From positions 1 through 35,855 of IMG/VR virus record IMGVR_UViG_3300043446_003431: a stretch of DNA of 35,855 nt; one strand, written 5' to 3'. Source of the stretch: a virus. Below, one piece after another: positions 303 to 13,457 of the stretch; position 1 is the first letter of the stretch, and every line of letters begins with the position of its first letter. The position numbers were made by a program, and so were the translations under genes. The notes under the pieces are model-generated. The model made no database searches and was not told where the DNA came from. It worked only from the letters and a program-made list of their open reading frames with translations.

Positions 303-1262
303 ATGACAACTGTAGTAATCATGCCCGGGGGTTTTCACCCTTTTCATCCAGGACATCTAGCACTGTATCAATCAGCACAGCGAACATTTCCCGATGCTGA
401 AGTGTATGTGGCTGCTACCAATGACAAAAGCGACAGACCTTTTGATATATCTGACAAACAACGAATTGCCTATGCTGCAGGGGTAGAACTGGGGCACTTT
501 GTACAAGTCAAATCACCTTTTCAGGCCATGGAAATTGCCAGTCAGTACGATCCTGACAAGGATGTATTAATCTTTGTTCGCAGTGAAAAAGACGCCAACT
601 CTCCGCCCCGGCCGGGTGGTGTAAAAAAAGATGGATCGCCCAGTTATCTACAGCCACTGTTGGGTGCCAAACAATTGGAACCATTTAAAAAGCATGCCTA
701 TATGGCTTACTTGCCCACAATAGAATTTGGCCCAGGCGCATTTACGTCAGCCTCTGAAATACGTGCGGCGTGGCCTAGATTGAATGCCAAACGCAAATTG
801 GCCTTGGTCATGAGCCTGTATCCTAGCACTCAAAAAGATCCCATGGCAGCAAAAGACATAGTAAACATATTTGATCAAACCATTGGTGGTGTGGCTGAAA
901 ACCAAGGTTGGGCTGCCACATACGAAGCAGATGGCCTCACAGCAGGGTTTGGCAGCACCGGTGGCATGCATGCCACTTACCAAGATCGTTACAATCAACC
1001 TGTAGACGAAGCTCGTATTCATTTTACCGACCCCAAGACTCCAGTGAACCTGTACTACATTCCACCCAAACTACAAGCATCAGGACAGGTACAGAACGTA
1101 GCACACAACATTCCCTACAGCACGGTGATGCCTTTGATTCAACGCATCAAACAAAAATACCCCTCAATGAATCCTGAATACATGGTTTGGTATCCCATGG
1201 GCCAAGACCGATTTGGTCAACGACTCAAAGAAGATTACATTGACGAGCGATCAAACTGCTAA
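303..1262 (+). CDS. Cytidylyltransferase-like nucleotidyltransferase with C-terminal extension
   Basis: The N-terminal half (about residues 1-175) is a HxGH-family nucleotidyltransferase. It has an N-terminal beta strand followed by H15-P-G-H18, the nucleotide-binding signature, and TSASEIR near residues 148-154, which matches the usual (S/T)SxxIR second motif. Such enzymes transfer a nucleotidyl group to a phosphorylated sugar, cofactor or lipid head group; the substrate cannot be told here. Residues 176-319 form an extension without recognised catalytic motifs; it begins near a GGVAEN sequence (V197-A198-E199) like the Val-Ala-Glu junctions in the modular genes downstream. The ATG follows a TAAATA motif and has no ribosome site. 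The 3' end overlaps the next gene. The domain call is firm; the biological role is open. Confidence 0.8.
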   Translation: MTTVVIMPGGFHPFHPGHLALYQSAQRTFPDAEVYVAATNDKSDRPFDISDKQRIAYAAGVELGHFVQVKSPFQAMEIASQYDPDKDVLIFVRSEKDANSPPRPGGVKKDGSPSYLQPLLGAKQLEPFKKHAYMAYLPTIEFGPGAFTSASEIRAAWPRLNAKRKLALVMSLYPSTQKDPMAAKDIVNIFDQTIGGVAENQGWAATYEADGLTAGFGSTGGMHATYQDRYNQPVDEARIHFTDPKTPVNLYYIPPKLQASGQVQNVAHNIPYSTVMPLIQRIKQKYPSMNPEYMVWYPMGQDRFGQRLKEDYIDERSNC

Positions 1263-2379
1263 TCCTTACTACTGTCCGTTAATTTTTAACGGTATGTATG
1301 TAGAAAAAATCAATCAAGACAAAGTAAAAATATCTGCATGCTGTGTCAATACTCCTGGACCAGAAACAGATACAATTGACTTTGACAATGACCTATACCT
1401 GCAATCACAGCGAAAGTTAGTGAAACAACACAAACCAGTACCAGGCTGCCATGCCTGCAACAACAACTACACCACATTCAGTCTCAAAGACAATGCCATC
1501 AGCCATTTCCAAAATACCTCAGTGGATGTCAATAGACCCAGACTTACCAAACTTGACTGGAACGTGGATCCTACTTGCAACGCTCGTTGTATACAATGCA
1601 GTTCGCACTATAGCAGTGCCTGGGCTGCAGAAGATGCAGCACATGGTAAAATTATCCATGTGCGAGCTACCAATTACACTAGACATAACTTGGCGGCAAA
1701 ATCAATTGATGTTTCTGAGTTGACCAGTCTCTATTTCAACGGCGGTGAGCCTATGTTGAGCAAAGAGCCCCTGGAGTTTTTGAGACGCATAGAAAAAAAT
1801 GGCAATATTAAAAAATTAAATCTTTCATTTAACACCAATGGTAGCATTAGACCTTGTTGTGAGTTTATGGAATTAGCAGCCATGTGTAAATCTGTGGTAG
1901 TAAATTTCAGTCTTGACGGAATTGGACCAGCGTTTGAATACATTAGAAATCCTTTGAGTTGGCAAACTGTTGAACAAAATATCAGTTGGTGGAATGACCA
2001 AAAGATACCTACTATAAAATTCAACATAACTTTTGTATTGGGTGTACACAACATTGACATTGCGGAAGACACCTACAATTGGTATAAAGATATGTGCCAT
2101 ACTCACAAACAAATGGTAGGATTTGTGATTAACCAATGCTATGGTATTTTAGCGTTAGATTACACTTCTGCAAAACTAAAACAAGTGTGGGCAGAAAAAT
2201 ATATTGGAGATGATTACATCCATTCTACAATTCGCAGTATATTAGAAAAATCTGCCGATGCCCAAGAGGACAAAACTTGGCAAAGACATCTTGAAATGAT
2301 TGATTCTAGACGAAAATTAGATTGGACCATGCACTTGCCTAAGTTGCATGAGGCCTGGAAAAATTCACAGTCATTATAA
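1240..2379 (+). CDS. Twitch-type radical SAM protein
   Basis: The protein carries a radical SAM iron-sulfur motif CX3CX2C (CNARCIQC, residues 113-120 from this start) followed by YFNGGEPML, the SAM-binding GGEP motif. Further Cys pairs lie upstream (CC, then GCHAC) and could bind an auxiliary cluster, as in twitch/SPASM relatives. These enzymes make a 5'-deoxyadenosyl radical and modify peptides or small molecules; the substrate is unknown. The start is uncertain: no ATG precedes the conserved N-terminus. I prefer TTG at 1240 because AAGAAG lies seven bases upstream; TTG at 1213 would add nine residues. The gene overlaps the preceding nucleotidyltransferase. Between this gene and the next lie a TAAATA motif and a clear ribosome site. 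Confidence 0.8.
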   Translation: MTSDQTANPYYCPLIFNGMYVEKINQDKVKISACCVNTPGPETDTIDFDNDLYLQSQRKLVKQHKPVPGCHACNNNYTTFSLKDNAISHFQNTSVDVNRPRLTKLDWNVDPTCNARCIQCSSHYSSAWAAEDAAHGKIIHVRATNYTRHNLAAKSIDVSELTSLYFNGGEPMLSKEPLEFLRRIEKNGNIKKLNLSFNTNGSIRPCCEFMELAAMCKSVVVNFSLDGIGPAFEYIRNPLSWQTVEQNISWWNDQKIPTIKFNITFVLGVHNIDIAEDTYNWYKDMCHTHKQMVGFVINQCYGILALDYTSAKLKQVWAEKYIGDDYIHSTIRSILEKSADAQEDKTWQRHLEMIDSRRKLDWTMHLPKLHEAWKNSQSL

Positions 2380-2385
2380 CCCTAG

Positions 2386-2412
2386 TAAATACCTACACAT
2401 TTTTAACGGAGA
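2386..2412 (+). promoter_or_regulatory. TAAATA late-promoter-like motif plus GGAGA ribosome site
   Basis: TAAATA at 2386-2391 is followed by GGAGA at 2408-2412, four bases before the ATG at 2417. Unlike most other TAAATA sites here, the spacing leaves room for a short leader with a ribosome site. The ribosome site fixes the start of the following glycosyltransferase gene. Confidence 0.5.
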
Positions 2413-2416
2413 ACCC

Positions 2417-3352
2417 ATGTCAGATCAAGCACCGGTGACCACAACACCACCCACAAACCCTGCCACCACTAACCAGCAAAACATTCAAGTCAACATTGAT
2501 TATTTGCGTACCACACGAGTGCATATCTGTATGCCTTGCTATGGTGGACAGTTGACCGAACAGTGTTTCATGAGTTATATCAAATGGTCCAATATCTGCA
2601 GGCAACTGGGCATTGACTGGACTGTGGAAACCATGACCAATGAGAGTTTGATTTCACGTGCAAGAAACACACTCACTGCCAAGTTCTTACACACCAAAGA
2701 GTCAACACACCTGATGTTTATTGACGCTGACATTGGCTGGGAACCCTGGCACTTGCTGGTGATGTTGGATGCACAAAAAGACGTCATCGGCGGTTTGTAT
2801 CCCATGAAATCCCTGCCGGTGAAATGGTGTGTAAACGGCATCCCTGGCCTGGTAGAAGATCCCAATTCCAATCTTGTGGAAGTCACCAAGACTGGCACTG
2901 GTTTTTTGTTGATCAAGCGTGATGTATTTGACAAGCTCAATGCACACCCTGCCACCAAGCCGTTCAACAATGACATTGGTTTGCCTGAAGAACTCAACCC
3001 CTACATGAAAACCTACTTTGACACAGCGGTACGTGAAAACCGCTACTACTCAGAAGACTGGACCTTCTGTGAAAACTGGCGTGATCTCGGTGGACAGGTC
3101 TGGGTAGACAAACGTGTGTTGTTGCGACACGTGGGCACATACACATTTGACTACGCCACACACGAACAACTGTACAAGGACCTCAAGGTCATGTTTGAGC
3201 CCAATGTCAACATTGTCACAGCTCCGGCTGGAGCATTGCCCACCAATGCAGTGCCTGCAGGACACGAATTGGCCAAGGAGCCAGCACCTGAACCTGAGCC
3301 AAAGTTCATGGCTTCTAGCAAAAAGAACAAGAAAGCAACGGCCGCGGCCTAA
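2417..3352 (+). CDS. GT-A-like glycosyltransferase
   Basis: About 311 residues. After a low-complexity Thr/Pro/Asn-rich N-terminus, the protein has strands typical of nucleotide-diphospho-sugar transferases: VHICMPCYGG, then TNESLISRARNTL, then LMFIDADIGW with the DxD-type metal-binding triad DAD. A later YYSEDWTFCENWRDLGG segment resembles the acceptor-side acidic region. These enzymes add sugars to DNA bases, proteins or surface glycans; which applies here is unknown. The C-terminus is Ala/Pro/Glu-rich and ends in a Lys-rich tail. GGAGA at 2408-2412 supports this ATG rather than an in-frame start about 70 bases upstream that overlaps the radical SAM gene. Confidence 0.75.
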   Translation: MSDQAPVTTTPPTNPATTNQQNIQVNIDYLRTTRVHICMPCYGGQLTEQCFMSYIKWSNICRQLGIDWTVETMTNESLISRARNTLTAKFLHTKESTHLMFIDADIGWEPWHLLVMLDAQKDVIGGLYPMKSLPVKWCVNGIPGLVEDPNSNLVEVTKTGTGFLLIKRDVFDKLNAHPATKPFNNDIGLPEELNPYMKTYFDTAVRENRYYSEDWTFCENWRDLGGQVWVDKRVLLRHVGTYTFDYATHEQLYKDLKVMFEPNVNIVTAPAGALPTNAVPAGHELAKEPAPEPEPKFMASSKKNKKATAAA

Positions 3353-3367: not shown

Positions 3368-6300
3368 ATGAACATTCATGAGCTGACTACCTTTAATCTT
3401 GCCGATGCAGTGCGATTTCATCGCCGTCTCAATCCCAGAATCTGGGGGCGAGACGAGCATTTACTGCCTGCGGTGCGTGAAAAACTCTTGGCCATAGCAG
3501 AGGACTTTCAAGAATTCTTGGGAGTGGAAGACCTTGATGTCCAAGATATCACTGTGTCAGGCAGCAACGCAGCCTACTCCTACACAAAAAACTCTGACAT
3601 TGATCTACACCTAGTGGTCAACATGCCAACAGATCCAGTGTACCAAGAATTGTTCACTGCAAAAAAATACCAATACAACGACGAGCATAACATAAAAATT
3701 GGCGGCGCTGACGTAGAATTGTACGTACAGCCTGCGGACCAGGCCCATCACAGCCAAGGCATTTATTCTATTCAAAACAACAAATGGATCAGTGTGCCCA
3801 AGCGTAAACGTGCGCAGATAGATGATGTGTGTGTGCGTGACAAAGTGGCATCCTTGGACGCTAGAATTCATTCCGCAGTGAAAAGTAAAAATCTTGAAGC
3901 CATTGTTCGACTATGGGACAAGATCAAAGCCATGCGGCAGATAGGGCTGGAACAGCACGGCGAGTTTGGCTGCGAAAACATTGCTTTTAAAATGTTGCGC
4001 AACTCAGGTTGTATCAAATTGTTGAAAGACACCAAGACTGAGTTGGAAGATCAGGCACTGAGTCTGCGTGAAGCAGACCGTCCACCAAAACGTTTCCGTT
4101 ATGGTTTTAGCGAAGACATCATGGATCCCACCCAGCAATCTTACAGTTCGGCTGACGGTGTGGCACCAACCACCAAATCTTTTTTGGAACACTCAGACTC
4201 TAACAGCAGTGATGTACAAGACTTTATTCAGCATGTCACAGCAGAATTGGGTATTGATCCATTACCAAAAATCCGGCTGCATACAGATCCTGACTGGAGC
4301 ACACATAATCACAGTTTTGGTCGTTATGATCCTGACACGCACACACTCAACGTCAGCATGCCCAATCGTCACATACTAGATGTACTGCGTACTGTGGCAC
4401 ATGAACTGGTGCATTGCAGTCAACATCAACAACATGGTGACATACCAGATGACGCAGGCGAAACCGGTAGTCGTTGGGAAAATGATGCCAATGCCCGAGC
4501 CGGCATCATCATGCGTGACTGGGCCAACACACATCCCGAACACTTTGCCCATGAGCCCTTGGAAGAAAATGCATCAGGCTATATTCCCAAAAACAAAAAG
4601 GAAGCAGCCATGCCGCAGTATGCCATGGCTCTTTCAGTGGACATCAAACCTGGTGAAGTGGGCAGACAGGCCAACAAATTAGCACTCAAAACTGGACGCA
4701 ATGGCGAGCCAGGCTTGTTACAGCCTGATGCACAAAATCTATTGCGTGAGTTCTCTGAGTTTGTGACAGAACAAGAAAACCTGTTTGAAATCTCCATGAG
4801 TCCCACAAGCCTGAAAAAACTCAGCGCACAAACTGGTGCCCTGGCCGGCATGGAGTTTGAAATGATTGTGCCTGGTGTTCGGGACGAAGATCAAGATCGA
4901 GAGCCCGACTATGACTACGATGAACGCACCAGGAGCATTGATGAAATCTGTGACTTCTTCAATGACGGAGATTTCAACGGTCGCAGACAGATTGATGATC
5001 TAAGACGCAGATTGACAAATTCTTATGAAGAGTGGGCCGAAGATCAAATTCAAGCAGAATGGGACAATCAAGGCCTGGCCCATGTGTATCAGTATGTAAA
5101 AAACAATGTAGACGATGACACCATCATTGAAGCCCTGGGCCTGGAACCTGATGAAGCGGGCGACCCTCCTGTGATAGGTCGTACAGATTACACACAATAT
5201 GCAGAACTCTGCATGGAAGAACAAAACGATGTCTATGACGAGGCTCTGCAGGAATTTCGCGACGAGTGGTTCAATGACTACAATCACGAAGACGACTGGC
5301 TGCAGAGTGAAGGCCTTGACTACATGAGCAATGTAGAACAGGAATACAGTGGCCTAGTGACATGGCCGCACTGGAATGATCCTGATGCTGGCGAAACAGA
5401 TGTGGAACAAGTGGCCGACAACTTCAGTGCTGCCATTGGTCGCAAGGTCAACTGGAGTCGTAACTATCACGGTGGTCGGCGAGAACCCAATGCCTATGTG
5501 GTGGAACCTGACAGCAGCCTGGACCCAGATGATCCCAATGATTCTGGCCTGGAGTTTGTGAGCCCGCCCCTGCCCATTGAAGAACTGTTGAGTGATTTGA
5601 ACACTGTGAAAGCATGGGCTGATAAGACAGGTTGCTATACCAACGACTCAACTGGCCTGCACATCAATGTATCAGTGCCGGGTTGGTCAGGAGACAACAA
5701 TCAGTTGGACTATGTCAAATTGGCTGTGTTGCTGGGTGATGAGTATGTGCTGGATGTGTTTGGTCGTGCAGGCAATACCTATGCCAAGTCAGCCATGGGC
5801 AAGATTCGCAGTATCATAAAACAAAACCCTGCCAAGGCAGAAGAACTGCTGACCAAAATGAAGTCAGGCATGGATCAACTGGCCAGCAAGGCCATACACT
5901 CGGGTTCAACAGAAAAATACACTTCAATCAACAACAAAACAGGCTACATTGAGTTCCGCTCACCAGGTGGCGACTGGTTAGATGCCAACTTTGACCAGAT
6001 TGAAAACACCTTGCGTAGATTCACAGTGGCCCTGAGTGCAGCCGTGGATCCTGAAGCCTACAGAAAAGAATACCTAAAGAAACTGTACAAGTTGTTGGAT
6101 GTTTCTAGCGAAAAAGATCCCTTGAGTTATTTTGCCAAATATGCCGCAGGTGAACTGCCCCGGGCTGCACTGAAGAGTTTTGTGCGTCAAGCTAGACTGG
6201 AACGTGAAGTCAAACGTGGCAAGGAAACAGGCCCAATGTGGTGGAAGGTTTCAAATCCACCACAAAGTTTTGCCAGTATCGAAGTGGTGGCAAGTTCACA

Positions 6301-7747
6301 GGAAGAAGCCATACAAAAAGCCCTGGGACCAGATGGCTATCCAAATTGGGCCAACACTATCAATTCAGTTGTGGCCGAACCTGTGCGTCCCTACAAACAA
6401 GAACCTGTTACCGCACCTGCTGCATCTACCGCAGTGCCAGCGGCTGGAGCGTCCACCACTGTGTCACATCCTGAAGGTCGCGGCAGACCACACGATCCCA
6501 CAGGACGTTATGCCATTGTGGCACGAAGTGATCGGGCAGCATATGGTCGCCGTGGCGGGCCTGCACCCTACTACTATTTTAGATTCAACATGGGTAATCT
6601 CGAAGATCAAGGTCATGGACGCGGTGTTCTACAGGCCTGGGCTGCAAGAAACAACGTCAATGCTGCTGATTACATGGTAGTGGATACCGAAGAATACGCT
6701 GACAGTGGTACTGCACAGGATCTCCCCAACCTCTTCCCAGACATACCAGCTGCCAACCCCACAGGTGAGTTCAATGGGCAATGGAAAGTTGTTGATGGTT
6801 TGGGTAGAGAAGTATATAGATTTGGCGGTGTGGGCAACAGTCAAGCAGATGCTAATAGAGTAGCCGCAACCTGGGCAAGAACCACAGGCTTTGATGGCAA
6901 CATTGAAGTATATCCGGTGATGGCGGAAAGCCTGCGTGAATATCGAATGCAACAGCCCAGTCATGGTCCAGGCGCAATAAAGGATTTGAACGAACCCTTG
7001 GGTCCAGAGTCACCACCCCAAATGCCCGACGGCACCATCAAAGTAGATGTGTCAGACATGTACGACTGGTACAAACTTGGCCAAAAGATATCAGATCTAG
7101 ACAGCATCCAACCAGGCGAACTGGGTTCTGGTCCCCCATCAACTGTATTTGCATTTGGTAGTGAAGACTTGGAAAACATGTACAGTCACCAACTCACAAG
7201 ACTGGGTTTGAAAACACATGACTTGGATGAACCAGGTGAAGAAGACATAGATGAGAACTTTGCTGATGGCAAGAATCCTGGACGCAAGGGTTTAGCCAAA
7301 CGTGTAGGGGTCAACACCAAAGCGTCAGTCAGCAGTTTGAGAAAAACTGCCAAGCACAGCTCGGGTGAAAAGCAACGCATGGCACATTGGTTGGCCAACA
7401 TGAAGGCCGGCAGAGCCAAGGCCAACAAAAGCAAAACCAACGAAGCAATCATAGGCTACTTGCACTTTCCCAACATCACTGTGGGAGTGGACGAACATGC
7501 AATTGAACGTGCTCAGACTCATGGCATTGATCCCAATCAAATTGACGCTTGTTTGAAAAAATTACAAAAAGTTGTGACTCAGTTATTGTCTATGGAACTA
7601 AACAATACAGTGTGGGTATATGATGCCAACACCAATGTCGCTCTAGGACTGCGTAGAATCAGCAGCACTGATCCTAAATTCAAACTAAAAACTGTGGTCA
7701 ATAACAGACCCTATGATGGTCAAACTCCTATAATAGACATACCATGA
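3368..7747 (+). CDS. Giant modular protein: nucleotidyltransferase, zincin, amidoligase-like and small C-terminal modules
   Basis: 1459 residues. Residues 1-235 look like a Pol-beta-type nucleotidyltransferase, with G65-S66 and S76-DIDLH. Residues 285-395 carry the zinc-protease motif HELVH (345-349) followed by GETGSRWENDANA, which could supply a third ligand. Residues 398-455 form a small module starting NASGYIPK. Residues 490-890 resemble an amidoligase (carboxylate-amine ligase): GMEFEMIVPG, SGLEFVSPPL, STGLHINVSVPG and GYIEFRSPGG. Residues 965-1185 hold three short alpha/beta modules; 1296-1350 a basic FADGKNPG...KAGRAK module; and 1360-1459 a compact domain with HAIERAQ. Hydrophobic-x-Glu triplets precede several modules (400/401, 474/475, 1187/1188, 1296/1297). 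Domain calls are by motif and memory, and the overall role is unknown; a packaged virion protein is my inference. Confidence 0.8.
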   Translation: MNIHELTTFNLADAVRFHRRLNPRIWGRDEHLLPAVREKLLAIAEDFQEFLGVEDLDVQDITVSGSNAAYSYTKNSDIDLHLVVNMPTDPVYQELFTAKKYQYNDEHNIKIGGADVELYVQPADQAHHSQGIYSIQNNKWISVPKRKRAQIDDVCVRDKVASLDARIHSAVKSKNLEAIVRLWDKIKAMRQIGLEQHGEFGCENIAFKMLRNSGCIKLLKDTKTELEDQALSLREADRPPKRFRYGFSEDIMDPTQQSYSSADGVAPTTKSFLEHSDSNSSDVQDFIQHVTAELGIDPLPKIRLHTDPDWSTHNHSFGRYDPDTHTLNVSMPNRHILDVLRTVAHELVHCSQHQQHGDIPDDAGETGSRWENDANARAGIIMRDWANTHPEHFAHEPLEENASGYIPKNKKEAAMPQYAMALSVDIKPGEVGRQANKLALKTGRNGEPGLLQPDAQNLLREFSEFVTEQENLFEISMSPTSLKKLSAQTGALAGMEFEMIVPGVRDEDQDREPDYDYDERTRSIDEICDFFNDGDFNGRRQIDDLRRRLTNSYEEWAEDQIQAEWDNQGLAHVYQYVKNNVDDDTIIEALGLEPDEAGDPPVIGRTDYTQYAELCMEEQNDVYDEALQEFRDEWFNDYNHEDDWLQSEGLDYMSNVEQEYSGLVTWPHWNDPDAGETDVEQVADNFSAAIGRKVNWSRNYHGGRREPNAYVVEPDSSLDPDDPNDSGLEFVSPPLPIEELLSDLNTVKAWADKTGCYTNDSTGLHINVSVPGWSGDNNQLDYVKLAVLLGDEYVLDVFGRAGNTYAKSAMGKIRSIIKQNPAKAEELLTKMKSGMDQLASKAIHSGSTEKYTSINNKTGYIEFRSPGGDWLDANFDQIENTLRRFTVALSAAVDPEAYRKEYLKKLYKLLDVSSEKDPLSYFAKYAAGELPRAALKSFVRQARLEREVKRGKETGPMWWKVSNPPQSFASIEVVASSQEEAIQKALGPDGYPNWANTINSVVAEPVRPYKQEPVTAPAASTAVPAAGASTTVSHPEGRGRPHDPTGRYAIVARSDRAAYGRRGGPAPYYYFRFNMGNLEDQGHGRGVLQAWAARNNVNAADYMVVDTEEYADSGTAQDLPNLFPDIPAANPTGEFNGQWKVVDGLGREVYRFGGVGNSQADANRVAATWARTTGFDGNIEVYPVMAESLREYRMQQPSHGPGAIKDLNEPLGPESPPQMPDGTIKVDVSDMYDWYKLGQKISDLDSIQPGELGSGPPSTVFAFGSEDLENMYSHQLTRLGLKTHDLDEPGEEDIDENFADGKNPGRKGLAKRVGVNTKASVSSLRKTAKHSSGEKQRMAHWLANMKAGRAKANKSKTNEAIIGYLHFPNITVGVDEHAIERAQTHGIDPNQIDACLKKLQKVVTQLLSMELNNTVWVYDANTNVALGLRRISSTDPKFKLKTVVNNRPYDGQTPIIDIP

Positions 7748-8172
7748 GAAACCTAATCAACCTTATTGAAGCCAAACAGCGTGGTTGTCCCTTGGCCACA
7801 CATGACATTGACGAGAATCTAAAGAATCGTCAACGAGCCATTGACGACTATCACTATGGCCCGGCCAATCCTGACCGCCCTGAAGACTACTGGCGCAAAA
7901 GTGCCAAGATATTCAAGGTCAGTGAAGCCACTGCCCGCACCATGCAGTGTGCCAACTGCGGTGCGTTTGATGTCAGTGACAGCATGCGTGAGTGTATCAG
8001 TGCAGGCATACGTGGTGATGAGACCGCGGTGGATGCCAATGCCAGCATCAACCTAGCAGACTTAGGCTACTGCAATTTTTTACACTTCAAGTGTGCAGGT
8101 GCTAGATCCTGCAAGGCCTGGATCACCGGCGGACCCATCACTGAAAAAGACAAGAATAAGTCAGCGGACTAA
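7744..8172 (+). CDS. Small Cys-rich phage protein, possible zinc ribbon
   Basis: 142 residues, starting inside the stop of the giant gene (ATGA overlap). The N-terminus MRNLINLIEAK places a hydrophobic-x-Glu triplet at residues 7-9, and DIDEN repeats the pattern at 22-25. The central part has CANCGAFD followed by further Cys residues (RECIS, GYCNF, FKCAG, RSCKAW), which could bind one or two zinc ions. I associate this family with T4-like marine phages but know no function. Its position in the modular run and its N-terminus fit the proposed capsid-targeted set. Confidence 0.75.
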   Translation: MRNLINLIEAKQRGCPLATHDIDENLKNRQRAIDDYHYGPANPDRPEDYWRKSAKIFKVSEATARTMQCANCGAFDVSDSMRECISAGIRGDETAVDANASINLADLGYCNFLHFKCAGARSCKAWITGGPITEKDKNKSAD

Positions 8173-8175
8173 ACT

Positions 8176-8751
8176 GTGCAACAACATGAATTCACTGCGG
8201 AAGCATCGCCCAACACCCTGGGTGGCAGTTTTACTCCTGATCTTGTAAACAGCAAGACATGGCTGTGCAATCAACTGCGAAAAGAACTGGGCGGCAGATC
8301 TGCCGGAGACATCTACATCCTGGGTTCATGGTACGGCAACCTGGGCATATTTTTGCAAGAAGCCAACATTGAATTTGATCGGCTGATCATGGTGGAAACT
8401 CGGCAACAACTGCTGGCCACTGCACGACGTCTGCTGGCACCCTTGTATCAACAGGGCAGACTGAAGTTGGTGCTGGGACTGGCTGAACGCATTGAATATC
8501 CACGCAAGAATTTCACAGTGATCAATACCAGTGTGAACGACATGCGTCGTACATGGTTGCAGCGTGTGCCTGATGACACACTGACAGTGATACAAGGGCG
8601 TAACAACCTAGACAATCCCCGAGTGGCCACTGATGGTGCGGCTCAATTCTACATGAAATTTCCTTTGGATCGCACTACATATTGGGGCGAACGACGACTG
8701 CGTGATCCTGAAACCCGCTACCGACGTTGGATGAAGATTGGCTATAAATAA
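8176..8751 (+). CDS. Class I methyltransferase-like phage protein
   Basis: 191 residues from a GTG codon; no better start is near. YILGSWYGNLGIFL resembles the glycine-containing SAM-binding loop of class I methyltransferases, and DRLIMVET fits the following acidic strand. The catalytic half is weak: no NPPY-type or Pro-Cys motif is present, and the C-terminus (RDPETRYRRWMKIGYK) is basic. A methyltransferase-like fold is inferred; enzymatic activity is not established. It lies between two genes of the modular run and ends just upstream of an exact TATAAATA. Confidence 0.6.
   Translation: MQQHEFTAEASPNTLGGSFTPDLVNSKTWLCNQLRKELGGRSAGDIYILGSWYGNLGIFLQEANIEFDRLIMVETRQQLLATARRLLAPLYQQGRLKLVLGLAERIEYPRKNFTVINTSVNDMRRTWLQRVPDDTLTVIQGRNNLDNPRVATDGAAQFYMKFPLDRTTYWGERRLRDPETRYRRWMKIGYK
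8743..8750 (+). promoter_or_regulatory. TATAAATA late-promoter-like motif
   Basis: An exact match to the T4 late promoter core overlaps the stop of the preceding gene. The ATG at 8758 lies seven bases downstream without a ribosome site. Confidence 0.55.
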
Positions 8752-8757
8752 ACAATC

Positions 8758-9105
8758 ATGACTTACAGGGAAATTCTTGAAGCCTGCTGGACTGGCTATC
8801 GCCGCAAACCTGGCACAACTGAGTACAGCAAAGGCAGTTGTGAAAAGATCCACGAGCGCGAACTGGAAGAAAATCTCCGTGACTGGTTTAAAGAAAAATG
8901 GGTTCGTTTTGGTCCCGACGGCAAGATCCGTGGTGACTGTGCTAGAGGATCGGAAAAGGAAGGCAAGCCTAAGTGTTTGCCCCAGGCCAAGGCGCACGCA
9001 CTGGGCCGAAAAGGGCGTGCATCAGCAGCGGCTAGAAAACGTAGACAAGATCCCAACCCCAACCGTACAGGAAAGGCCATCAACGTGGCCACTAAAAAGA
9101 AATGA
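8758..9105 (+). CDS. Small basic phage protein with capsid-targeting-like N-terminus
   Basis: 115 residues, strongly basic in the C-terminal half (RKGRASAAARKRRQDPN). The N-terminus MTYREILEAC resembles the T4 internal-protein capsid-targeting peptide as I remember it (MKTYQEFIAE), with the possible cut after E8. A second hydrophobic-x-Glu triplet (L36-E-E38) precedes NLRDWFKEKWVRFGPDGK, a module of a type I recall from T4-like phage proteins (xxKWVxxxxxGKxxG). No enzyme motif is visible. It overlaps the next gene by ATGA. A DNA-binding or packaged role is inference from charge and context. Confidence 0.7.
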   Translation: MTYREILEACWTGYRRKPGTTEYSKGSCEKIHERELEENLRDWFKEKWVRFGPDGKIRGDCARGSEKEGKPKCLPQAKAHALGRKGRASAAARKRRQDPNPNRTGKAINVATKKK

Positions 9106-10859
9106 TCATAGACGAACTATTTGAAGGCCCCCAACTGTGTCCCGAATGCGGTGGCATCAGTTTCTCAGACCTGATCCTGGCCGAGAAAAAAGACGCCTGC
9201 TACTACAAGGTAAAAGCGAGTGCCAAGGTATGGCCGTCGGCCTATGCATCTGGACGACTGGTTCAGTGCCGCAAAAAAGGTGCTGCCAACTATGGCAAGA
9301 GCAAGACGGAGAGTATTCGCGACCCCAACGAAATGAGTGGTGTAAACTCCATGCGTAAAAAATTAGGAAACATCATTAAACAAGCCGCACAGGATGATGA
9401 AGTTGCCTATAACGCATCAAAACTTTATCGAGAATTATGGAATATCTATGGTGGCGATATTGATGCAATCATTGCCGAAAGATCTATTTTTGAATTAGAA
9501 AAATTAGCAAGAGAATTAGTAGCAGTCAGCAAGCAAGGCATGGCGGAAGGCAAGGTCAAGCTCTACACCGATCCCAGTTATTTTGGTGCCGAAGTGGACG
9601 ACACAGGATTTGACAGTTTACCTGTTGTAAACATTCCCACAAATCGACTGGTAGGATTTGAACCTGACAGCAAAATGCAACAACCAAAAGCCATGGCCAA
9701 TGTTAAAAACATATTGGCAGGGCTAGAACAGGGTGACAACATTCCTCCTATTCTGGTACGCAAGTATAAAACTGGATATCAGGTATTAGATGGACATCAT
9801 AGATTCTGGGCCTACAAAGTGGCCAAGAAAGATAGTATACCCGCAAGAGTAGTCGATCCCAAAGACATTGAAGAAGTTGGTCAGCAAGGCATGGCGGAAC
9901 AGCAAGAACTGGACGAAAAGTGGAGCCAGAAGTATAAGAAGAGTATCAACTGTGCCAACCCTCGAGGCTTCAGCCAACGGGCACACTGTGCTGGTCGTAA
10001 GAAAAATGAAGACGTAGCAGAAGCTGGGCCTTCAAGAAGAGATCCATTAGACTATCCGCCGCTGGAAGGTCCTGGTGGCAGTGGTGCCGGCGGCTACACA
10101 GGTGGTCCTTCACCATTTCGTGGTATATTTGGCCGATCCAAAGAAGCACCTGTTACTGAACCCCAGTGGAACACTACAAAAATACCCGGAGTTGATATTC
10201 ATACTGGTCCTCCGCCCACAATAACAAAACCTCCAAACATCAATAAAAAAATAGATCCGGCGTCAGACGTACCTGCTTACGTAAGGCAAGGCGTACCTGA
10301 TCCTGTGACCTTACCCGTGGGCAAACCACGTATCACAGTTCGGCCTGGAGAAACTCAATCTCAAGCCATACAACGCACCCAGACCGAAAAAGAATTTGGT
10401 CAGTTTCTGCAAGGACAAAGCGGTCAAACTTTTGGTGCCGGTGCCGGCCGTGGTAACGTAAATCCAGAACCAGCAAAGACGCAAAAGTTTCCTGAACTTA
10501 AGACTGATACACAAGTCAAGTGGGATGAATTTAAACGCAAGCATGGTGTCGAACACCCTGACAAAATAGAATACGATACTAACAAAGCAGTGCAGGCAAT
10601 GTCTGACCGAGTAAAACAAAAAGGTCCGCCGCCAATTCCGGCAAAAAAACCATCATGGAAAACCCCTGACACTGATATTGAACTAGAAGGAGAGTCGCGT
10701 AAAAAACGTTCACAGCCCGAAGTTGATTACGATGACGAGTACGATGCCATGGTGGCCAGAGTGAAAAAGTTAGCAGGACTTGGTCCCTTGAAAACTGTGT
10801 ACGATCCCACCAAGCGTCAGTATCGCAACATGCCCACAGCCCAACAACCTAAAAAATGA
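9102..10859 (+). CDS. Modular phage protein with ParB-like domain
   Basis: 585 residues in modules: (a) N-terminal MIIDELFEG with a Phi-x-Glu site at 6-8, then a possible zinc knuckle (CPECGG); (b) residues 29-66, KKDACYYKVKASAKVWPSA, a module I recall from several phage proteins; (c) an AT-richer helical module, about 80-145; (d) a ParB/sulfiredoxin-like domain, about 151-258, with VLDGHHRFWAY as the GxxR-type box; (e) residues 273-301, KWSQKYKKSINCANPRGFSQ followed by a Cys-containing basic end; (f) a Pro/Gly-rich, probably disordered C-terminus. Phi-x-Glu triplets precede or separate modules at E28, E149, E266, E272 and E307. The ParB-like fold can bind nucleotides or DNA; the actual role is unknown. 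Confidence 0.75.
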   Translation: MIIDELFEGPQLCPECGGISFSDLILAEKKDACYYKVKASAKVWPSAYASGRLVQCRKKGAANYGKSKTESIRDPNEMSGVNSMRKKLGNIIKQAAQDDEVAYNASKLYRELWNIYGGDIDAIIAERSIFELEKLARELVAVSKQGMAEGKVKLYTDPSYFGAEVDDTGFDSLPVVNIPTNRLVGFEPDSKMQQPKAMANVKNILAGLEQGDNIPPILVRKYKTGYQVLDGHHRFWAYKVAKKDSIPARVVDPKDIEEVGQQGMAEQQELDEKWSQKYKKSINCANPRGFSQRAHCAGRKKNEDVAEAGPSRRDPLDYPPLEGPGGSGAGGYTGGPSPFRGIFGRSKEAPVTEPQWNTTKIPGVDIHTGPPPTITKPPNINKKIDPASDVPAYVRQGVPDPVTLPVGKPRITVRPGETQSQAIQRTQTEKEFGQFLQGQSGQTFGAGAGRGNVNPEPAKTQKFPELKTDTQVKWDEFKRKHGVEHPDKIEYDTNKAVQAMSDRVKQKGPPPIPAKKPSWKTPDTDIELEGESRKKRSQPEVDYDDEYDAMVARVKKLAGLGPLKTVYDPTKRQYRNMPTAQQPKK

Positions 10860-11248
10860 GAGCCCAAGAGTTTGTCACAGAAGGCCAAGACAAAGCACAG
10901 GCTGTGCGCAGAATACAGAAAATGCTCAATGACCGTTTTGACGCCAACTTGGATGTGGACGGTGTGTTGGGACCACTCACACAAAAAAGCATCAATCGCT
11001 TCATGCCCAGTGCCAGGCCTGCCCCAGCCGATGATCCCAGCCGACCCACTGCTGTACAAGGTCGACAATCCAAACAGTCTGACGATGAACAACTGGACGA
11101 GTTGAGTTTCCTGGGATCGGAATGCACCAAAGACTGTTCAGGTCACAGAGCCGGATATGAGTGGTCAAAACGCAAAGGCCTACGTCAGGCCAATTCATGG
11201 AGCCCCAGTTTCAACAAAGGTGCTGGCCTGGCAGTGGCTGGCAAATAA
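10856..11248 (+). CDS. Peptidoglycan-binding-like domain plus small phage module
   Basis: 130 residues. Residues 13-50 (AVRRIQKMLN, then DGVLGPLTQKSINRFM) fit the PG_binding_1 fold that holds cell-wall peptides. After a Pro/Gln-rich linker and the triplet L80-D-E82 comes LSFLGSECTKDCSGHRAGYE, a Cys-containing module I have seen repeatedly in T4-like phage proteins. The first residues, MRAQEFVTEG, again resemble a capsid-targeting peptide with a possible cut after E9. It overlaps the previous gene by ATGA. A wall-binding, virion-associated function is plausible but not proven. Confidence 0.7.
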   Translation: MRAQEFVTEGQDKAQAVRRIQKMLNDRFDANLDVDGVLGPLTQKSINRFMPSARPAPADDPSRPTAVQGRQSKQSDDEQLDELSFLGSECTKDCSGHRAGYEWSKRKGLRQANSWSPSFNKGAGLAVAGK

Positions 11249-11593: not shown

Positions 11594-11798
11594 AATTGTA
11601 GAATCAGCGTCAGCTGGCGCCACTGCCGCCGGTGGTATAGCACCAGTAAGCATGCCCATGGGCGTGATATCAAGATCTGGAGGTTCTATGCTGTCAGGTA
11701 AATATACAACAGGTTCGGATCCTACGCCCAACACGCCCAAAGAATACAAGAGGAACAAAAATGCTCGCGGACAGTTTAAAAACTCTATTAGCAACTGA
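11580..11798 (+). CDS. Small phage protein with capsid-targeting-like N-terminus
   Basis: 72 residues: MRACEIVESA, then a Gly/Ala/Ser-rich segment (SAGATAAGGIAPVSMPMG) and a basic end. The triplet I6-V-E8 at the N-terminus matches the T4 prohead-protease consensus (L/I)xE. GGAG at 11569-11572 lies seven bases before the ATG and supports the start. The gene overlaps both neighbours, which argues for a real translated frame in this operon. Function unknown; small internal head proteins have this kind of layout. Confidence 0.6.
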   Translation: MRACEIVESASAGATAAGGIAPVSMPMGVISRSGGSMLSGKYTTGSDPTPNTPKEYKRNKNARGQFKNSISN

Positions 11799-12204
11799 AT
11801 ATGCGTTCAGTATCAAGGCCCAGTTATTTCACTGGAACGTGGAAGGACCGGACTTTGCACAACTGCATGAGTTTTTTGGCAATCTATATGAAGAAGTCTA
11901 CAACGGTAGCATAGACAAAACCGCAGAGTACATACGTGCCATGGGTGACTACTCACCAGGCAGTTTTGAACGATTTGCTGAACTCAGCATCATACAGGGA
12001 CAAACCAAAATTCCACGAGCCCGACTCATGATTGAAGAACTCTTGGCCAACAATGGTCAACTCTTAGAATTACTCAATGACACTTTTGCTGTGGCTGAAC
12101 AAGAAAATCAACAGGGCATTGCCAACTTCATTGCCGAACGCATTGATGCACATCAGAAACATGCATGGATGCTGAGAAGTTTCTTGAAAGACCAGCGAGC
12201 ATGA
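11761..12204 (+). CDS. dps: Dps-like ferritin family protein
   Basis: 147 residues, mostly helical, close to the usual Dps length (150-200). The ferroxidase ligands expected for Dps are all present: H24 in LFHWNVEGP, H36 in QLHEF, and D52 and E56 in SIDKTAE. The C-terminal helix IAERIDAHQKHAWMLRSFL also fits. Dps forms 12-subunit shells that bind DNA, oxidise iron and blunt peroxide damage. Its N-terminal tail is short, so direct DNA binding is uncertain. AGAGG about seven bases before the ATG supports the start, which overlaps the previous gene by 38 bases. A TAAATA at 11699-11704, inside the upstream gene, might serve it. Confidence 0.85.
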   Translation: MLADSLKTLLATEYAFSIKAQLFHWNVEGPDFAQLHEFFGNLYEEVYNGSIDKTAEYIRAMGDYSPGSFERFAELSIIQGQTKIPRARLMIEELLANNGQLLELLNDTFAVAEQENQQGIANFIAERIDAHQKHAWMLRSFLKDQRA

Positions 12205-13457
12205 GCAACGACATCAGATCAATCTTGGACCGATTGGCCACAGTGGAAGGCCGATTAACACCTGGACAACAACGGGTGCCACAACTGCCTGCACTGTTCA
12301 AACCACGCCATGTTCGTGCCCTGGGCTCAAAAACAGATCCTGCCCATCCCATGGACGGATACATGGTGGGCGACAGTGTAGAGCCTAAAAAAACTGCACT
12401 AGAAGAAGCCATGGCAGAAATTGAAGAGGACATGCTGAGCAAGGTCAAAAAAGATCTCACACAATACCTGGATCGCTTGGAAAAGAAAGTGCGTGTAGAT
12501 CGCGACTTGAAAGACAAAGCTAGAGATGCTGTGGGGCGGGGCGAGGCCGAAGAAGAGATCGAAGAGTTTGCACCACCTGGTGATGATGACAGCGGACCTG
12601 GCGAAGAAGAAATACTGCGTCGTCTGGCTGCACAGTGGTGGCACGGCGACGAAGATCCCCGAGCCGAACGTGCGCTGGCAGCCATGGGTTGGGAAATTGG
12701 TCAAGATGAAAGCGGCGATGACGATGCCGGAGTATTCCTTGTACGTGCTGGAGATATCAATGGCAACAGTTACATGGCGTTTAACCAGAGTGATTTAAAT
12801 GTATTAGATGAACTTGATTACTCTGCCGGATCAAATGCCACAGCACAGCCAAGTGTCAACCAGCAGGCACAAACTGCCGGCAATGCCATTAAGACATATA
12901 TGCCTGCTGCGACCAAATTTGCTGCCGGCACCGTAAGACAAATGAAGGGTCAAGACCCAACCAAAGATCCTGCATACGCTAAATTGTCCCCAGCACAGCA
13001 ACAACAATATGTTCAAGCACAAAAAACCATTGATTCTACTGATGCTGATGAATTAGAAAAATTTGATGCCAATCAAGCAGCAGCAAATATTCAAGGAGTT
13101 GCCAAAACATTACCTAATCCGGCCAACATGCCTGATGTCAACTTGAAATCCAATGTTGTTGATCGTAAGACGGCCGCTGACTATGCTCCGGCCACTGTCA
13201 GCGGTAAACCAGCCACATCACCAGAGTCTGCAACAAAGCCTGATGCACCTGCTGCCACGTTTGAAATGGCGGATGGCAAATCCTTAAGTTGTTATGGCAA
13301 TGATAACGAAGGTTATGAACTGCGTCACGGTGACCGTCGGCTGCCAAGTCGTTTCAAAAATCTCGACGATGCTGGCATGGCTGTCAAACTGTATCAGGCA
13401 CGGCGGCGTCAACAGAGCCAGCAAGACCTTGGCCAAGATTACATAGAAGAACGATAA
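12201..13457 (+). CDS. Conserved T4-like phage protein, acidic
   Basis: About 418 residues, taking the ATG that overlaps the Dps stop (ATGA); a longer frame starting at 12165 would lie inside dps. The N-terminus MSNDIRSILDRLATVEGR, then VPQLPALFKPRHVRALGSKT and DPAHPMDGYMVG, matches a family I recall in T4-like cyanophages. A coiled-coil-like acidic stretch (ALEEAMAEIEEDMLSKVKK) is followed by an acidic DDDSGPGEE linker and a second globular part (RRLAAQWWHGDEDPR). The last third is Ala/Gln/Thr-rich and partly AT-richer in codon use, ending in a small compact module (LSCYGNDNEGYELRHGDRRL). Function unknown; a virion or prohead role is inferred from context. Confidence 0.75.
   Translation: MSNDIRSILDRLATVEGRLTPGQQRVPQLPALFKPRHVRALGSKTDPAHPMDGYMVGDSVEPKKTALEEAMAEIEEDMLSKVKKDLTQYLDRLEKKVRVDRDLKDKARDAVGRGEAEEEIEEFAPPGDDDSGPGEEEILRRLAAQWWHGDEDPRAERALAAMGWEIGQDESGDDDAGVFLVRAGDINGNSYMAFNQSDLNVLDELDYSAGSNATAQPSVNQQAQTAGNAIKTYMPAATKFAAGTVRQMKGQDPTKDPAYAKLSPAQQQQYVQAQKTIDSTDADELEKFDANQAAANIQGVAKTLPNPANMPDVNLKSNVVDRKTAADYAPATVSGKPATSPESATKPDAPAATFEMADGKSLSCYGNDNEGYELRHGDRRLPSRFKNLDDAGMAVKLYQARRRQQSQQDLGQDYIEER

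Follow-up and report, generated by a model that had tools for sequence, protein, structure and literature searches.

A single phage reading frame joining a nucleotidyltransferase, a zincin and an amidoligase-like module as a probable head-cargo precursor

Introduction

Why would a phage make several unrelated enzymes as one chain, and how would such a chain be used? The question is raised by a 1459-residue open reading frame (ORF) in the IMG/VR virus record IMGVR_UViG_3300043446_003431, of which positions 1 to 35,855 were analyzed (this whole stretch is called the window below). The source appears to be a large freshwater phage related to T4, in which several unrelated enzymes seem to be made as one chain. 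An earlier note on this DNA had described a nucleotidyltransferase (NTase), a HELVH zincin and an amidoligase-like domain in the frame, separated by hydrophobic-x-Glu triplets, and had suggested packaging and release by cleavage. By computation we examined the folds, the conservation of catalytic residues, the exchange of modules at predicted cut sites, leader peptides, internal export signals, and the gp21 and gp23 genes of relatives. We consider it likely that the product of this ORF is a precursor of head cargo in a jumbo phage of the T4 superfamily, which the prohead protease would cut and which would enter the host together with the DNA.

Folds and catalytic residues of the polyprotein

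All motifs named in the earlier note were found where it had placed them in the frame: GS..SDIDLH at residues 65-81, HELVH at 345-349, GMEFEMIV from residue 494, and GLEFVSPPL, TGLHINVSV and EFRSPGG within residues 727-868 (window translation). The note had also proposed structure prediction and a check of the catalytic residues. The NTase, zincin and amidoligase folds were all recovered in models and backed by structure matches, and the motif residues proved invariant or nearly so among relatives.

The NTase module was matched by PHROG 36119 over residues 10-233 (E 1.5e-42), and weakly by Pfam NTP_transf_2 (0.0099). In Foldseek searches of the PDB with its model, CdnE (6wt9, E 4.5e-4) came first, followed by AAD(9) and AadA, with VIA Z scores of 6-7. 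The features of a Pol-beta NTase, namely the GS motif, the DxD, a third acidic residue and the NTase fold, are present, and G65, S66, D77, D79 and E117 are invariant in an alignment of 27 sequences. The same holds in the zincin module for H345, E346, H349 and E371, the last of which would be a zinc ligand. The zincin model aligned (VIA-align) with SPRTN (Z 9.1 over 99 residues, 3.0 Å), Wss1 (Z 8.9), and selecase, IrrE and lethal-factor-type folds (Z 7.7-7.9). An HExxH motif with a downstream Glu on a zincin fold is of the gluzincin type, which supports the HELVH domain as a gluzincin-fold putative metallopeptidase. The AlphaFold model contains two ordered bodies, residues 11-234 and 277-390, with predicted disorder between them; the joints at about residues 237-277 and 395-456 are both predicted to be disordered.

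Amidoligase_2 (PF12224) matched the third module with an E-value of 1.2e-6 and 29 bits, against a curated cut-off of 22, and matched 12 of 28 members scanned. Across 25 sequences E729, H765, E862 and R864 are invariant, and E496 and E498 nearly so. The model of this region (predicted local distance difference test score, pLDDT, 83) retrieved almost exclusively glutamine synthetases as top Foldseek matches, although with a best E-value of 5e-3 and low TM-scores, which gives support at the level of the fold only. The chain holds at least two unrelated effector domains, one of the marks of a polyvalent protein.

Module borders coincide with hydrophobic-x-Glu sites

Homologues of the polyprotein were found at 43 viral loci (43-70% identical, on contigs of up to 364 kb), with 30 distinct full-length starts among them. 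The order of the modules varies among these relatives, and the last modules often lie on separate ORFs. Concerning the hydrophobic-x-Glu triplets that the earlier note had seen between the modules, their number turned out to be close to chance (25 in 1459 residues versus about 22 expected from a background of 0.0153 per residue in one relative's genome), and the count was dropped as evidence of cleavage. Their placement, however, is not random, as module borders fall on them. At alignment edges where the module context changes between relatives, hydrophobic-x-Glu was aligned in 38.7% of 936 module-edge pairs, compared to 0.4-16.5% at six interior offsets.

Two modules were followed through unrelated contexts in an enlarged set of loci. 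For the FADG module 42 unrelated upstream contexts were counted; P1 is Glu in 41 of them, and P3 is hydrophobic in 38 of these 41. For the SGYIP module the corresponding figures are 16/16 and 14/16. P-values for such joint comparisons are nominal, since phages share ancestry. DUF6321, taken as a further joint test, offered only three unrelated contexts.

The modules were also found as stand-alone genes, a search proposed by the earlier note, in the case of the NTase, the zincin, the FADG module and the C-terminal module. A stand-alone FADG gene at locus L019 begins MRAREFITE↓NFADG (↓, predicted cut), its leader Glu aligning with the window joint DIDE↓NFADG. Likewise, the C-terminal module at L014 begins MRAHEIINE↓VFVG and aligns in the same way with the joint KTNE↓AIIG. 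Two stand-alone zincins (L166, L114) have leader-like starts. Where cyanophages encode the NTase by itself, its last residues are LSL, LSLR or LSLK, so that the protein stops one or two residues short of the predicted cut LSLRE↓A.

A common leader precedes unrelated cargo

Genes adjoining the polyprotein begin with a nine-residue leader, MRAxEF(I/L/V)xE↓. In all, 190 distinct leader ORFs were collected, which fall into 55 unrelated first-module groups and give the consensus M(R/K)AxEF(I/L/V)xE↓(A/S/G), the residue after the leader often being Ala, Ser or Gly. In the added loci, 129 of 129 leader ORFs are on the same strand as the cargo match. The strict leader was found at the start of 4 of 356 ORFs in one relative genome (349 kb) and at none of its 1698 internal Met residues, while no general enrichment of [LIVMF]xE near N-termini was seen over all ORFs of that genome.

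In form the leader is nearly identical to the start of the T4 IPIII sequence record, MKTYQEFIAE↓A. The first 10 residues of IPIII are enough for targeting and packaging, and gp21 cuts at L/I-x-E (PMC9026906).

The T4-superfamily background

A gp21-type prohead protease (PF03420) and gp23 (PF07068), about 3 kb apart or less, are encoded on five large related contigs, and a sixth carries gp23 only. At the position where gp23 of the T4 type is cut, the relatives' gp23 has YLKE↓NA(S/T), presumably the site of cleavage. Judged by their sequences, the relatives are T4-superfamily jumbo phages, and the predicted joints of the polyprotein agree with both the gp21 specificity and the putative gp23 site of these phages.

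Ribosomal protein bS21 is encoded by 9/9 large relatives (G001, G002, G004-G010; loci L179, L180); the same feature has been described in other jumbo phages from fresh water that have a prohead-protease region (PMC9723584). Genes for DnaJ-like and ClpA/B-like chaperones, recognized by N-terminal sequences, lie a few kb upstream of the polyprotein at L002, L018, L021, L041 and L044.

Internal export signals in relatives

Signals of the twin-arginine translocation (Tat), Sec and lipoprotein types function at the N-terminus only. Cargo ORFs of relatives contain canonical Tat motifs (RRGFL and then an Ala-rich stretch), either midway along the ORF or after a leader, and all those found sit 2-3 residues past a hydrophobic-x-Glu (10 contexts in 7 clusters). 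Sec- or lipoprotein-like segments begin 4-5 residues past such sites, as in LEE↓GIKSALATAALAG.. and LDE↓GRVANIAAAAAMAASLVGC. Hydrophobic segments lie 3-12 residues past a site in 9/12 cases, versus 14% for random positions. Because these signals function only N-terminally, their position argues that the chain is cut. Behind some of the export-like segments are LysM/GH19 or M48-peptidase modules; the window polyprotein itself contains no internal export signal.

We put forward tentatively, at slightly less than even odds, a delivery in two stages: cuts in the prohead would turn internal Tat, Sec or lipoprotein signals into N-terminal ones, and after ejection the host machinery would export the LysM/GH19 and M48-peptidase enzymes to the envelope. 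Literature searches on export signals in injected phage proteins returned nothing relevant.

Homologues detected in S-CREM2 virions

The stand-alone NTase homologue gp156 of cyanophage S-CREM2, 34.8% identical to the window NTase, was detected in virions by mass spectrometry (PMC10665884). The leader-bearing proteins gp6, 12, 13, 14 and 154 were detected there too; leaders of the MKNFSSFLTE type are carried by an S-adenosylmethionine (SAM) hydrolase, a Cas9-like nuclease, a kinase, a cytidylyltransferase and a small protein of these virions. An F(I/L/V/M)xE near the N-terminus is present in 9 of 219 S-CREM2 ORFs, six of the nine being virion-detected (Fisher p 0.0065; p 0.0018 when detected non-structural proteins are compared with undetected ones), the motif having been picked post hoc.

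Proposed mechanism and alternative explanations

We infer the steps of packaging, cutting, ejection, enzyme activity and export as follows. The polyprotein would enter the prohead core with other cargo, much of it bearing the nine-residue, IPIII-like capsid-targeting leader. A gp21-type prohead protease would cut after hydrophobic-x-Glu at module borders, freeing the NTase, the zincin, the amidoligase and the small modules. These pieces would then leave the head with the DNA and might immediately attack proteins or metabolites of the host. Cuts of this kind in relatives would additionally lay bare Tat, Sec or lipoprotein signals, and some cargo is possibly exported to the envelope as a result. 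The suggestion in the earlier note of packaging and release by cleavage has gained strong indirect support, from the joints, leaders and signals of relatives and from the virion-detected stand-alone NTase homologue.

Several observations weigh against this reading. The polyprotein begins MNIHELxxxNL, of which MNIHEL corresponds to the first half of the leader only, and this N-terminus does not end in the L/I-x-E of an N-terminal capsid-targeting sequence (CTS); as MNIHEL comes without the full leader, the polyprotein is not classed as a CTS protein but is said to work like CTS cargo. With its 35.9 kb the window is a fragment that encodes neither gp21 nor gp23, and large relatives such as G004 (343 kb), G006, G007 and G010 gave no gp21 match, possibly due to divergence or missing sequence. 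The contexts used for the joints are incompletely independent. The S-CREM2 leader test comprises nine ORFs and a motif picked post hoc, and the authors of that study caution about carry-over and contamination in caesium chloride (CsCl) preparations (PMC10665884).

The chain could instead be a classical polyvalent protein that is packaged whole, any processing being done by its own zincin in the head or after injection. Zincins are the commonest domain of polyvalent proteins, for which self-processing has been proposed (PMC5512222). Nearly all relatives retain the zincin, and one of them has an ART-PolyVal match, below the cut-off of that profile. We nevertheless hold this to be unlikely: the same joints are found in cargo ORFs lacking a zincin and in the 190 leader ORFs, they match the specificity of a different enzyme, gp21, as well as the gp23 site, and stand-alone zincin genes bear the leader themselves. 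The internal signals bear on another explanation, an ordinary intracellular enzyme fusion that is never packaged, with leaders and acidic joints being compositional or serving some other purpose. Tat and Sec signals inside an uncut chain would be useless, and S-CREM2 virions hold the NTase homologue together with five leader-bearing non-structural proteins. Even allowing that this detection comes from S-CREM2 and not from the window phage, and that the raw triplet count is near chance, we regard an unpackaged fusion as very unlikely.

It is similarly improbable that the modules have degenerated into structural or DNA-condensing fillers of the head, with enzyme-like folds that are no longer catalytic, since the catalytic residues of all three enzyme-like modules show little or no variation despite overall module identities of 36-82%. 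What speaks for fillers are small basic, Cys/Lys-rich modules such as KKDACY, WSQKYK and FADG, which have no known enzyme fold, and the fact that KKDACY and WSQKYK are shared with cyanophage proteins near terminase genes.

Comparison with known systems

The elements of a cleavable head-cargo precursor are known separately: packaging in the T4 internal proteins (IPs) and Alt (PMC9026906), multi-domain effectors (PMC5512222), and Glu-specific maturation (PMC10052503). With T4 IPI-III and Alt the present family shares the form of the CTS leader (MKTYQEFIAE↓ versus MRAQEFITE↓), the hydrophobic-x-Glu cut and the gp21/gp23 background, and, as in the T4 internal proteins, unrelated bodies stand behind one leader. 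T4 cargo, however, is made as one protein per gene with N-terminal cuts (in Alt also C-terminal), whereas here enzymes are strung together with predicted cuts between them, modules are shuffled and internal export signals occur.

Polyvalent proteins (Iyer et al. 2017, PMC5512222) likewise combine unrelated enzymatic domains (NTase, zincin, GNAT, ART-like) in one chain thought to be packaged and injected. Metallopeptidases embedded in the chain, or assemblin-like domains at its C-terminus, are held responsible for their processing, in contrast to the separate prohead protease and stereotyped joints proposed here, and the word 'amidoligase' goes unmentioned in that paper. The T4-like cyanophage S-CREM2 has the NTase homologue, the cytidylyltransferase and shared small modules, all virion-detected, but encodes them as separate genes, and its leaders are not highlighted in the available part of the report (PMC10665884). 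In phiKZ and SPN3US a protease related to gp21 cleaves many head proteins behind a Glu prior to their ejection; those cuts, in contrast, remove propeptides at S/A-x-E or A-x-E motifs, and the accessible part of that source (PMC10052503) describes no shuffled multi-enzyme chain. Finally, the signature residues and predicted fold of Amidoligase_2 (PF12224, glutamine-synthetase-like COOH-NH2 ligases) are shared with the third module, which differs from known members in being embedded in a proposed cleavable phage head-cargo precursor.

A literature search, with subscription papers outside its reach, found no shuffled multi-enzyme chain cut between modules by a prohead protease and no export signals uncovered by such cuts. 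If the proposed reading is true, a whole lineage of environmental jumbo phages keeps the weapons that it injects as exchangeable cassettes, with capsid-protease sites at the joints, which would explain how injected cargo gets shuffled. The leader and the joint motif would then give a simple rule for picking out, among thousands of unknown phage genes, those whose products enter the host as infection begins. With export signals hidden in a precursor, capsid maturation would be put to a new use.

Small modules, neighbouring genes and further observations

The coordinates of the modules and of neighbouring cargo-type genes are given in Table 1.

Table 1. Predicted polyprotein, its modules and neighbouring genes in the window (aa, residues of the polyprotein; ↓, predicted cut)
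Feature	Position	Strand	Remarks
Predicted polyprotein precursor	3368..7747	+	1459 aa, ATG start, no internal stop
NTase module, aa 11-235, Pol-beta superfamily	3398..4072	+	G65 S66, D77xD79, E117; predicted cut LSLRE↓A after aa 235
Linker, predicted disordered	4073..4189	+	DGVxPxTxMFLxE conserved in relatives; predicted cut FLE↓H after aa 274
Zincin module, aa 275-400	4190..4567	+	HELVH 345-349, E371; predicted cut PLEE↓N after aa 400
ASGYIP small module, aa 401-474	4568..4789	+	ends in cluster of candidate sites LRE, FSE, VTE, LFE
Amidoligase_2 / glutamine-synthetase-like module, aa 475-900	4790..6067	+	PF12224, model, Foldseek
Three small modules, aa 901-1187	6068..6928	+	candidate sites VVAE↓P (1004), VMAE↓S (1187)
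MPQPS/YDWYKLG module, aa 1188-1296	6929..7255	+	preceded by other modules in relatives; predicted cut DIDE↓N
FADG module, aa 1297-1357, ~60 aa	7256..7438	+	often C-terminal in relatives
C-terminal module, aa 1358-1459	7439..7744	+	TNE↓AIIG
Cytidylyltransferase-like gene	303..1262	+	PF01467 E 1e-4; C-terminal site DYIDE↓RSNC; orthologues with internal Tat or extra modules
Leader-type ORF	7744..8172	+	MRNLINLIE↓AKQ
Leader-type ORF	8176..8751	+	VQQHEFTAE↓AS
Leader-type ORF	8758..9105	+	MTYREILE↓A; PHROG 727 module
Second polyprotein-like ORF	9102..10859	+	MIIDELFE↓G; KKDACY and WSQKYK modules, ParB-like domain, two QGMAE linkers
Leader ORF	10856..11248	+	MRAQEFVTE↓G; peptidoglycan-binding-like domain

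Pfam and PHROG searches gave no match for the modules at residues 901-1187, and the small modules overall yielded nothing firm. A tblastn search of phage records with the 60-residue FADG module was without a match, for which low-complexity filtering is possibly responsible. The idea of a PBECR nuclease in the C-terminal module was unsupported, Pfam giving a weak DUF4258 only.

A portable linker, QG(V/M)AE(G), recurs between modules and is encoded by a near-identical 18-mer, CAAGGTGTGGCGGAAGGC. It is present in 66 peptide copies in 34 ORFs, with 8 within one ORF (positions 9534, 9885 and 13631 of the window; 13921-14958 of L034), and may aid cassette recombination.

Just upstream of the polyprotein lie genes for a radical SAM protein (PF04055, 1213-2379) and a PHROG 1574 protein that weakly resembles glycosyltransferases (2348-3352). 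A Dps-like DNA-binding protein (PHROG 3636, E 3.9e-28) is encoded at 11761-12204, inside the cargo island. A scan of bacterial genomes gave one distant match, on a Pelagibacterales-labelled contig (L181, 7227-8706), where a cytidylyltransferase is joined via KLNE↓NF to a homologue of the window zincin.

At the C-terminus, the cytidylyltransferase orthologues and the members of a second family have (E/D)DY(I/V/L/M)xE followed by 1-6 residues (1240-1262 and about 13440-13457 of the window, and 17 ORFs in related loci), as if these families were cut C-terminally too; the C-terminus of T4 Alt is processed by gp21 (PMC9026906).

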